A program made the translations under genes and the position numbers. From positions 1 to 20,780 of IMG/VR virus record IMGVR_UViG_3300003886_000062: a stretch of DNA of 20,780 nt. The stretch is one strand, 5' to 3'. Shown one piece after another: positions 3,210-6,500 of this stretch. The stretch comes from a virus. The notes under the pieces were generated by a model. The model saw only the letters and a program-made list of their open reading frames with translations. It was not told the DNA's origin and did not search any database. Numbering within the stretch: position 1 is the first letter of the stretch; the number at the start of each line of letters is the position of its first letter.

Positions 3210-3658
3210 TCGAATTCGATGCAGATGAAATAGCGCGATCGCTGGACGTGTCCTACACCCAGGTCATTCGCGAGACGGCGCTGTTATTCCTGCAGTCGGT
3301 CACTATTGCCACACCCGTGGGCAACCCGAGTCGCTGGGCTCCTCAGTCGTTACCTCCACCGCCCGGGTATGTCGGAGGCCGCGCCCGTGGCAATTGGCAG
3401 GTATCGATTGGGGGCCCGGAGACATCAGAGTTGGACGTTATCGACAAGTCCGGTGGTCCGACAATCGCCAGGGGCAACACCCGCATCAAGGCCTACCGCA
3501 AGGGCAGCCGGTTTACGTCAATTTTCATTCAGAACAATGTGCCGTACATCAATCGCTTAAATAACGGACATTCGAAGGCGATGGCGGCAGGTTTTGTCGA
3601 GCGAGCAGCGGCTGTAGCGGCGCGCGGCGCCCGCTTAAGCGGAAGGTCGGAGCTCTAA
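3206..3658 (+). CDS. Neck/tail completion protein, HK97 gp10-like
   Basis: A 150-residue protein with an N-terminal helix (~10-30, VIRETALLFLQSVTI). A Pro-rich segment with TPVGNPSRW and LPPPPGYVGGRARGNWQVSIG follows. The middle carries KAYRKGSRFTSIFIQN, then VPYINRLNNGHSKAMAAGFVERA and a helical tail. The combination TPVGxP...G..R.NW and PYxxRLNxGHSxQApxGfVe is the hallmark of the HK97 gp10 family. These proteins bridge the head-closure complex and the tail terminator, or help complete the tail. The start codon is embedded in the previous stop (ATGA at 3206-3209), and the stop gives TAATG with the next gene. Family call is strong; exact mechanical role is inferred from relatives. Confidence 0.86.
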   Translation: MIEFDADEIARSLDVSYTQVIRETALLFLQSVTIATPVGNPSRWAPQSLPPPPGYVGGRARGNWQVSIGGPETSELDVIDKSGGPTIARGNTRIKAYRKGSRFTSIFIQNNVPYINRLNNGHSKAMAAGFVERAAAVAARGARLSGRSEL

Positions 3659-4065
3659 TGACCACGCTGCAGGAGGCCCGCGCCGAGACCAACTCGCTCT
3701 TCCTCACAGCGTGGGGAGGTGTAGGCTCTGAAATTACCCGCATTTTCTGGGACAATATCCCGGGAGACGGAGAAGAACCCGATGAATACGTTATTGCACA
3801 ATTCCAGTCGAGCGGCGGCGAGATACAGGCGCTTGGCCCAACTGAGTTCGTGCAGCGCGGCATTTTCATTGCTCAGATATTTACTCAATCTGACAAGGGA
3901 TCGTTGCGGAACGATACATTGGCCCAAACAGCGATCAACGCGTTTCAGTCCGCGCCTCCCGGATCTGTTCGCTACCTCAACCCGTCGATTATCCATGTGG
4001 GTAACGATGGCAAGTTTTTCCAGACCAATATCAGCATCGAGTTTGAATACAGGCATTTTGTCTAG
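3658..4065 (+). CDS. Tail terminator protein (DUF4128-like)
   Basis: A 135-residue alpha/beta protein. The N-terminal helix is followed by a tryptophan-bearing strand (ITRIFWDN), then EYVIAQFQSSGGEIQALG, VQRGIFIAQIFT, a helix with RNDTLAQTAINAFQS, and a closing strand pair with KFFQTNISIEFEYRH. This is the order seen in lambda gpU/DUF4128 tail terminators, which form the hexameric ring that stops tail tube growth and joins the tail to the neck. Its place directly before the tail tube gene agrees. It starts at TAATG (3656-3660). Its stop codon TAG lies inside the AGGAGGT ribosome site of the tail tube gene, so the two are tightly coupled. Confidence 0.82.
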   Translation: MTTLQEARAETNSLFLTAWGGVGSEITRIFWDNIPGDGEEPDEYVIAQFQSSGGEIQALGPTEFVQRGIFIAQIFTQSDKGSLRNDTLAQTAINAFQSAPPGSVRYLNPSIIHVGNDGKFFQTNISIEFEYRHFV

Positions 4066-4080
4066 GAGGTTATTCCCATT
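4064..4080 (+). promoter_or_regulatory. Shine-Dalgarno site with ATT start codon for the tail tube gene
   Basis: A perfect AGGAGGT occupies 4064-4070 and overlaps the stop codon of the terminator gene. Seven bases later is ATT (4078-4080), which opens a frame encoding ISDSNRTQVA and continues without stop into the tail tube. No ATG, GTG or TTG occurs in that frame between the TAG at 4063-4065 and the ATG at 4297. The ideal spacing and the family-typical residues after it make ATT the likely initiator. Confidence 0.82.
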
Positions 4081-5664
4081 AGCGACTCAAACAGAACACA
4101 GGTAGCAATCCTGCGGTCCAGCGCGCGCAACATTCCGCTCGTAGCGCCACAGGCATTCGACCTGCTACGTTTTACCGGCACGCCGAATCTGGCGTTTGAG
4201 CCCAACACGATCGTTTCGAACGAGATCCGGCCTGATCGTCAAATAGGCGACCTGATTCTTGTCGGCGCGGAGGCCGGCGGAGATATCGGCTTCGAGATGT
4301 CGTTTCGCGCGTTTGACCTGTTGTTCGAGTCGGCGCTTTTCACGACGTTTGCCGCCAATCCTCTAACCCCGGTTCGCGCCGGCGCCGTGCAGGTCACCGA
4401 CATTAACCCTGGCGTCATCGAGGTCGACTCGACAACCGAGTTTGTGATCGGCCATACCGTTAGGCTATCGGGTATAGACGCGCTTAACGGCGACGCTCTT
4501 CGCGACGGTGTCTATGAGATTTCGGCTATCCCAAATGCCACGGATCTGACGGTTATCCAGCACAATGGACCAGCCGCTCTAATCGACCTGGTGGGCGGCG
4601 TGTTTACCAATGCCGAGGTCAAGGTAGCGGGAATAATTGCCCAGGCAGATGGCGAGATCGTCGCGAATGCACCTGTTGGCAGTATTGCCTCGATTACGTT
4701 CGCAGGAGCGGCCCTGACGGCCCTCCAGGAGGCGATGGGCTCAGGACCCGACACACTGAATCCCGGACAGGTCATCAAGCTGGGACACACCCGCACGGAC
4801 GCCCCGGTGGCAACTCAGGCCTTCGTCGGGACTCCTGCCAACAATATCAGCGCACGGATCATAAGCGTGGACACGACAGGCGGTGTTGTCACGTTTATCG
4901 AGCCAACCGGATGGGCGGCGGATGCGGCCGCGACAGAGCAGGTTGCGGTGTACTTTGCCGATTTCATGCCGAACCCTACAACGCCTGATTTGCTGACAGC
5001 TCATCAGTTCGCCATCGAGCGGTCGTTCCTCGATCACGTACCGATAACGCGTGAGCTATTTTTGGGCATGGCGATCAATACGCTATCGCTCAATCTGCAG
5101 CCACAGGCGATCGCGACGGCCTCTGCCACGTTCTTCGGCTTTAATAGCCAGGTGCGTGACGAGACGCAGATCACTGAGCTCTATGCAGGCGGTGTACCGA
5201 CTCGAGCAGCTGCTCCGCAAAACGACGTCTATAACACGTCGAACAACATCGGGTATCTGAACTTAGACGGTCAGAACATCTGTAACGACTCGATCAATTT
5301 GATCACTGAGCTTACGATCGAGATAAACAACAATCTGCGACGTCGAAATGCGGTCTGTGTGTTTGGCGCAGCATCTATCGGATCCGGCGAGTTGAGCGTA
5401 TCCGGAACGATGAACCGATATTTCGACAACAAGGACGACCTCGATCGTGTTCTCAACAACACCGAGTTCAGCTTCGGCACCGGGCTGCGCGATACAACCG
5501 GACGACAGGTCGTGTTCGACATGCCTCGTGCGAAGTACTCCGGCGGCGCACCGGATATCCCTGGCAAGAATCAGGACGTCACGATTCCTCTCACGTATCA
5601 GTCAATTTTAGACCCAACGCTGGGCTACACCATCTCGATCCAGCGGTTCACATTTGTAGGATAA
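4078..5664 (+). CDS. Major tail tube protein with inserted domains
   Basis: 528 residues when read from the ATT at 4078. Family members begin M-S/A-D-S-N-R-T/V-Q, and here the codons after ATT give SDSNRTQ. Residues ~48-72 carry SNEIRPDRQIGDLILVGAEA and GGDIGFEMS, the strongest signature of the phage tail tube family. The conserved core resumes at ~311 (FAIERSFLDH) and ends with TIPLTYQSILD and a terminal strand. Between them (~100-295) lie two beta modules, with IGHTVRLSGI and with PGQVIKLGHT, which make the protein clearly longer than the common ~300-residue form. Hundreds of copies stack as hexamers to build the tube. The ATG at 4297 would delete the whole signature and is rejected as start. 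The ATT codon may hold initiation below that of an AUG despite the perfect ribosome site. Confidence 0.88.
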   Translation: MSDSNRTQVAILRSSARNIPLVAPQAFDLLRFTGTPNLAFEPNTIVSNEIRPDRQIGDLILVGAEAGGDIGFEMSFRAFDLLFESALFTTFAANPLTPVRAGAVQVTDINPGVIEVDSTTEFVIGHTVRLSGIDALNGDALRDGVYEISAIPNATDLTVIQHNGPAALIDLVGGVFTNAEVKVAGIIAQADGEIVANAPVGSIASITFAGAALTALQEAMGSGPDTLNPGQVIKLGHTRTDAPVATQAFVGTPANNISARIISVDTTGGVVTFIEPTGWAADAAATEQVAVYFADFMPNPTTPDLLTAHQFAIERSFLDHVPITRELFLGMAINTLSLNLQPQAIATASATFFGFNSQVRDETQITELYAGGVPTRAAAPQNDVYNTSNNIGYLNLDGQNICNDSINLITELTIEINNNLRRRNAVCVFGAASIGSGELSVSGTMNRYFDNKDDLDRVLNNTEFSFGTGLRDTTGRQVVFDMPRAKYSGGAPDIPGKNQDVTIPLTYQSILDPTLGYTISIQRFTFVG

Positions 5665-5691: not shown

Positions 5692-6096
5692 ATGGCCTCC
5701 CCTTATCAATTATTCGGAACCTCGAAAGAGTCCGAGATCGAAGGCGTCGAGCTCGACTACGGCGACTTCATAATCAAAGCACGGCGTGCAGGCGGTGAGA
5801 ACAAAGAGTTCGGTCGACAGATCAGGAAATACCTGAAGAAGCACAAGAAAGCTGTCGCCCTGGACGCTGAGTTAACCGACCAGCAGCGTAAGGAGTTGAT
5901 TAAAGTCTATGTCGACACGGTGATTGTTGGCTGGAAGAATGTAGTGGATGCCGATGGCAAGAAAATGTCGTTCAGTAGAACGAGCGCCACGACTTTGCTG
6001 ACCGACCTGCCTGATCTGTTCGCAGACATCAGGGAGTCGGTAACCGACTTTCAGAACTTCCGCGAAGAAGCGATCGCAACGACGGTAAAAACCTAA
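5692..6096 (+). CDS. Tail assembly chaperone, short form (lambda gpG-like)
   Basis: A 134-residue acidic/basic, mainly helical protein. After an N-terminal strand segment (GVELDYGDFIIKARRAGG) come a Lys-rich helix (FGRQIRKYLKKHKKAV), a helical stretch with KELIKVYVDTVIVGWKNV, and a C-terminal helix rich in LPDLFADIRE and FQNFREEA. The layout NKEFxxxxxxxxKP-like, then xxxxYAxxVVxGWKNV, then LxxLPDLFxxI is typical of G-type chaperones encoded before the tape measure. It would bind the tape measure during tail assembly and not be found in the finished virion. A strong ribosome site (AGGAG, 5677-5681) precedes the ATG. Ribosomes that slip near the stop make the longer G-T fusion (see 6090-6500). 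Confidence 0.85.
   Translation: MASPYQLFGTSKESEIEGVELDYGDFIIKARRAGGENKEFGRQIRKYLKKHKKAVALDAELTDQQRKELIKVYVDTVIVGWKNVVDADGKKMSFSRTSATTLLTDLPDLFADIRESVTDFQNFREEAIATTVKT
6085..6096 (+). other. Probable -1 ribosomal frameshift site
   Basis: The short chaperone ends ACG GTA AAA ACC TAA. The run of five A at 6087-6091 lets the Lys tRNA on AAA (6088-6090) slip back one base onto AAA (6087-6089). Reading then resumes as AAC CTA ACG and stays open to 6498. The -1 frame is open both before and well past the stop. The heptamer is not a classic XXXYYYZ, so the exact slip codon is inferred; the direction (-1) follows from the frame arithmetic. Confidence 0.68.
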
Positions 6097-6500
6097 CGAC
6101 CCTCCTGGAATGGCGTCTCGGACCTGGTAAAACGCACGACGACGGTACTACCGAAGCCGAGCGAATCCGGAACGCCATGGAGGAGTCGGGTATTACACCG
6201 CCTGAGCGTCTCTACGAGCCACAGCTTGATCCCGGCGATCTAGTCTTTCAAATGGCTTATGACGACCTCGCTACATGCCGCACAGGTAACATCAATGGTC
6301 TCGGCCAGATACCGTGGACCTCTATCCATCAGTATTCGCTCGAGATGGGATTTTATGACCTTGAGGAACTCAAGGCTATCGTCTGGGGCGTCGACGCGGC
6401 GTTACGTGCCTGGGTCGATACCGAGCGCGCGATCGCGCGGGCAAAGGCCGATGCGAACGCCCAGGCAGTGCATGACAATTCAGCGGAGAGCCCACAGTGA
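6090..6500 (+). CDS. Tail assembly chaperone, frameshift extension (gpT-like part of G-T fusion)
   Basis: This is the downstream half of a G-T fusion that runs 5692-6090 and then 6090-6500 after a -1 shift, giving about 269 residues. The first codons after the shift read NLTTLLEWRLGPG, followed by TEAERIRNAMEESGITPPERL and LDPGDLVFQMAYDDLATCR. The LLxWRxG...G...P...P.L......AFxxLxxxR layout is that of T-type chaperones that contact the tape measure and tail tube subunits. An ATG exists at 6177, but it lies inside the conserved part, has no ribosome site, and would drop the LLEWRLG segment. Translation as a fusion is therefore preferred. The C-terminus is an Ala-rich charged helix. The stop overlaps the GTG start of the tape measure (GTGA at 6497-6500). 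Confidence 0.78.
   Translation, partial: NLTTLLEWRLGPGKTHDDGTTEAERIRNAMEESGITPPERLYEPQLDPGDLVFQMAYDDLATCRTGNINGLGQIPWTSIHQYSLEMGFYDLEELKAIVWGVDAALRAWVDTERAIARAKADANAQAVHDNSAESPQ

Follow-up and report, generated by a model that had tools for sequence, protein, structure and literature searches.

The tail tube locus and its genes

The window, which is the whole stretch of DNA analysed, comprises 20,780 bases of one strand (IMGVR_UViG_3300003886_000062, positions 1 to 20,780). The closest relative found is L001 (IMG/VR contig 3300003886_000078, 13,331 bases). The tail operon is on the plus strand, and the following features are relevant here:

3658-4065, plus strand: tail terminator gene with ATG start and TAG stop (phrog_179, 2.1e-18; 74% identical to L001)
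4064-4070, plus strand: Shine-Dalgarno sequence AGGAGGT, seen in the sequence, which overlaps the TAG of the tail terminator gene
4071-4077, plus strand: spacer of 7 nt between AGGAGGT and ATT, seen in the sequence
4072-4074, plus strand: second in-frame ATT from the codon list, an unlikely start at 2 nt from AGGAGG
4078-4080, plus strand: ATT, inferred start codon of the tail tube gene by alignment with TTG in L001 and ATG, TTG or GTG in other homologues
4078-5664, plus strand: tail tube protein gene, 528 codons, TAA stop (PF18906, phrog_290)
4297, plus strand: ATG, the first in-frame ATG, GTG or TTG in a codon scan
5692-6096, plus strand: tail assembly chaperone gene (phrog_313, 1.2e-23), 3′ of the tail tube gene (synteny)

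The sequence-only reading had taken the gene at 4078 for a tail tube gene, and this identification is borne out. The product matches Pfam family PF18906 (Phage_tube_2; 2.8e-39, 135.8 bits at a cut-off of 27) and phrog_290 (1.3e-61) over its full length. Tape measure families are also encoded downstream, and the gene thus lies between the tail terminator gene and the chaperone and tape measure genes, as is usual for its family. No tRNA and no Rfam family was found in the window.

The letters of the start region were likewise as described: AGGAGGT precedes the ATT by seven bases, the frame from this ATT reads ISDSNRTQVA and runs to the TAA at 5664, and a scan from the upstream stop finds no ATG, GTG or TTG in frame before 4297. 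From the in-frame stop at 4063, the codons are TAG GAG GTT ATT CCC ATT AGC GAC TCA. It had not been mentioned that this stop is the TAG of the tail terminator gene (4063-4065), that the two genes share a frame, and that the AG of the TAG provides the first letters of AGGAGGT.

As the upstream gene shares the frame and its stop is just 12 nt from the ATT, readthrough of the TAG could produce a fusion of tail terminator and tail tube via GAG GTT ATT CCC ATT. However, the arrangement is not conserved, as in L001 a TAA in a different frame closes the tail terminator gene, and the tail tube gene has a TTG of its own. In addition, a strong Shine-Dalgarno sequence would be pointless for a fusion, and two separate genes are present in the annotated homologous regions examined. 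We consider readthrough very improbable. Reassignment of TAG as a sense codon was rejected: two other genes of the window end in TAG (2274, 8659), with the next gene ten bases on, and the L001 terminator gene uses TAA.

Two side observations concern other genes of the window. The tail assembly chaperone frames (5692-6096 and 6177-6500) seem to be connected through -1 frameshifting at about GGTAAAA, just ahead of the TAA at 6096, which is a known kind of event in tailed phages. The second of these frames is open from position 6015 and is conserved with L001 (LLEWRLGxGKTH...) well ahead of its first ATG at 6177. Furthermore, start codons differ between the window and L001 at 6177 (ATG versus TTG), 6497 (GTG versus ATG) and 8669 (GTG versus TTG), so start-codon turnover is common in this phage group. 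Position 6177 may be no true start because of the chaperone frameshift.

The N-terminal boundary and the start codons of relatives

The tail tube proteins of the window and L001 are 88% identical over residues 1-528. Within codons 2-73, the differing codons are synonymous in 28 cases and non-synonymous in 6, with 5, 3 and 31 changes at codon positions 1, 2 and 3, respectively. This pattern points to purifying selection on the protein sequence, so that the stretch before 4297 is translated and the protein start is to be placed at or very near the ATT at 4078. The start position claimed in the sequence-only reading is supported also by the homologues, which begin at the same residue (MSDSNR, MSDTNR, MTDSNRTQ or similar). 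L001 has the NEIRPDRQ stretch unchanged, and variants of it such as EIRADR or IIPDRQ occur elsewhere.

The ATG at 4297, as the first canonical codon, would be the choice of ordinary ORF calling, leaving 4078-4296 untranslated. Such a start is hardly credible, as codons 2-73 are under strong purifying selection and the homology extends from the first residue onwards. The same applies to another near-cognate start such as the ATT at 4072, as 2 nt to AGGAGG is too short for normal Shine-Dalgarno spacing.

In L001, the AGGAGG is kept and the aligned first codon is a TTG located 8 nt after it, which is also the distance of the ATT in the window; the intergenic region is 10 nt shorter in the window than in L001. 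To extend the comparison, homologues were drawn from IMG/VR, GTDB genomes and isolated phages, and identical start regions were removed. Among the 33 distinct homologues, 29 start with ATG, three with TTG, one with GTG and none with ATT; these starts were assigned from the place in the alignment together with the closest canonical codon in frame, and not taken from annotation, so a homologue with a non-canonical start further away could be miscounted. The proposed check by alignment with related phages thus returned no second ATT, while L001, with its TTG, does not have the ATG that an error at this position would have suggested. It had also been considered that the ATT could serve to tune expression relative to the perfect ribosome site. 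With relatives using ATG, TTG and GTG, this finds no support in conservation, and tail-tube dose tuning by ATT is not supported by the comparison.

The prevalence of ATG bears on the alternative that a working phage has a canonical start and that the ATT stems from an error of sequencing or assembly, or from a defective minority variant, through a one-base change such as G to T at 4080. ATG, the commonest start of the family, is one base away from ATT, and codons 2-4 of the window (AGC GAC TCA) resemble those of ATG-started homologues such as L042 (ATGAGCGATAGC). A second copy did not turn up: a search of IMG/VR for the exact pattern with any base at 4080 and peptide-based searches returned only L001, in a searched set from which near-identical records may be missing, and a nucleotide search of phages gave no matches. 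However, each of the 14 genes common to the window and L001 aligns in one match, with neither a frameshift nor an internal stop, so that the contig shows no excess of errors and no other damage in these genes. Moreover, the nearest relative is also devoid of an ATG, and a random error might have produced any of several codons, but the one present, ATT, belongs to the weak starts that have been documented. We take an error or a defective variant seriously, as the main alternative, but consider it less likely than a genuine ATT start.

Shine-Dalgarno strength and probable use of the ATT

Pairing with the 16S anti-Shine-Dalgarno was predicted for the 20 bases upstream of each start. At -11.4 kcal/mol, the tail tube site is the strongest of the 17 plus-strand genes of the window that were checked, followed by the gene at 1601 (-10.7), with the remaining genes at -7.6 or weaker. 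The predicted RNA fold of 4038-4117 shows nothing unusual (z 0.11). Within the tail tube family, non-ATG starts (n=5, including the window) have stronger Shine-Dalgarno sequences than ATG starts (n=29; one-sided Mann-Whitney p=0.037, in a small sample uncorrected for kinship). This trend agrees with the compensation of weak start codons by Shine-Dalgarno strength (PMC5622118).

We conclude that the tail tube gene is probably initiated at the AUU itself, with reduced efficiency. Support comes from the nearest relative, which already has a non-ATG start (TTG) after the same AGGAGG; a single contig, the lack of ATT among the homologues and an ATG one base away speak against it. The weights that we give to AUU use and to an error or defective variant are judgements and not computed values. 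For the ATT as a start, as originally proposed, gene identity, start position and absence of a canonical alternative have stood, while actual use of the codon is the best reading of a single contig.

The AUU at 4078-4080 would be decoded by the initiator fMet-tRNA with a mismatch at the third position, giving a protein that begins Met-Ser-Asp-Ser, from which the Met may be removed. The 7-nt Shine-Dalgarno sequence, at ideal spacing, would hold the 30S subunit on the AUU. As stop and start are only 12 nt apart, re-initiation is plausible, and ribosomes finishing the tail terminator gene may contribute in this way. Output is expected to be well below that of an AUG. We infer that the contig gives this base correctly, that ribosomes use the AUU and that re-initiation has some share.

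It also speaks against AUU use that so inefficient a start would be unexpected for a protein abundant in the virion. Most likely, the lineage drifted from ATG or TTG rather than having been selected for low dose, and the ATT may be tolerated because the Shine-Dalgarno sequence is strong. More tentatively, and with somewhat more doubt than confidence, we suggest that most initiation on this major structural gene of the virion takes place at AUU, the strong Shine-Dalgarno sequence and re-initiation from the overlapping upstream stop providing enough output. If so, abundant phage proteins can have near-cognate starts, which gene callers overlook: callers restricted to ATG, GTG and TTG would lose 73 conserved N-terminal residues of the tail tube protein. 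A naturally occurring AUU start in the gene for so abundant a virion protein would, if real, also test how far a strong Shine-Dalgarno sequence can make up for a poor codon.

A Cas4-like phage gene and genes with AUU starts

IMG/VR was scanned for AGGAGG followed by 5-9 bases, ATT and a tail-tube-like N-terminus, and none of the 14 matches is recognisable as a tail tube gene. One match led to a gene which, in several phages, is located directly 3′ of a DEDDh exonuclease gene and is assigned to phrog_1706 ('CRISPR/Cas system associated', 1.7e-55). A Pfam search of its product gave no match, and the name Cas4-like is taken from the phrog_1706 label alone.

In eight contigs (L186 (998-1003), L187, L188, L190, L191, L192, L193 and L198), this gene has GGAGGCGGTTTAA followed by ATT. 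The ATT is preceded by GGAGG, and the TAA in GGAGGCGGTTTAA is a stop directly before the ATT in the same frame. An ATT directly after an in-frame TAA is found in L200 as well. Other relatives have CTG (L196, L197, L214) or TTG (L194, L201-L203, L205), and ATG is found in at least one distant relative (Sporosarcina phage Lietuvens; L183). In L189, L195 and the Paenibacillus phages Unity and Tripp (L181, L184), no canonical codon occurs before the conserved N-terminus, and ATC is present. The annotated starts in Unity and Tripp (L181 946, L184 1057) fall within the conserved protein, at different points in the two records, and are probably too late.

Six of the Cas4-like records have AGGAGG followed by ATG at normal spacing at many other places, so that the ATT looks specific to this gene. 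The Cas4-like gene possibly has a conserved near-cognate start, though readthrough of the adjacent in-frame stop may occur instead. The contigs are related and do not represent independent trials. As far as their letters go, they show that a strong Shine-Dalgarno sequence together with ATT can be kept in phages, in a different gene and in different phages from the tail tube case. The Cas4-like case may be stronger than the tail tube finding and suggests that near-cognate starts are under-annotated in phages.

A literature search joining phages with rare AUU starts found no paper. In Escherichia coli, infC reportedly starts with AUU (Sacerdot 1996), and so does pcnB, which is said to be translationally limited (Binns & Masters 2002); infC is autoregulated by its own product, IF3. 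AUU starts have also been described for cvfC1 of Staphylococcus aureus, where AUU with an extended Shine-Dalgarno sequence yields about 10% of the AUG reporter output (PMC13009471), and for RcsD-Hpt of Yersinia pestis, where the AUU start works (PMC10191623). The view that ATT starts are known mainly for infC-type genes is therefore too narrow. Switches from AUG to AUU are nevertheless very rare, with one among 61,358 ancestral AUG starts in 36 groups of genomes (PMC5622118), and this rarity weighs against an AUU start in the tail tube gene.

The tail tube gene differs from each of these. Its product is a tail tube protein and not a translation factor such as IF3, which separates it from the autoregulated infC class; unlike the translationally limited pcnB, it codes for an abundant structural protein, and its AUU is not conserved. 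The AUU of cvfC1 is conserved among staphylococci and has been mapped experimentally (PMC13009471), whereas the AUU described here is a putative start in one sequence; conservation among relatives, as found for regulatory starts of the cvfC1 type, is not seen. The PF18906/phrog_290 tail tube genes agree with it in protein family, operon order and start position but begin with ATG, TTG or GTG. The gene nevertheless has the hallmarks of an AUU-start gene, with no canonical in-frame start near the conserved N-terminus and an AUU at Shine-Dalgarno spacing. As in infC and pcnB, AUU replaces AUG at an otherwise normal gene start, and, as in cvfC1, it is combined with a strong, extended Shine-Dalgarno sequence.
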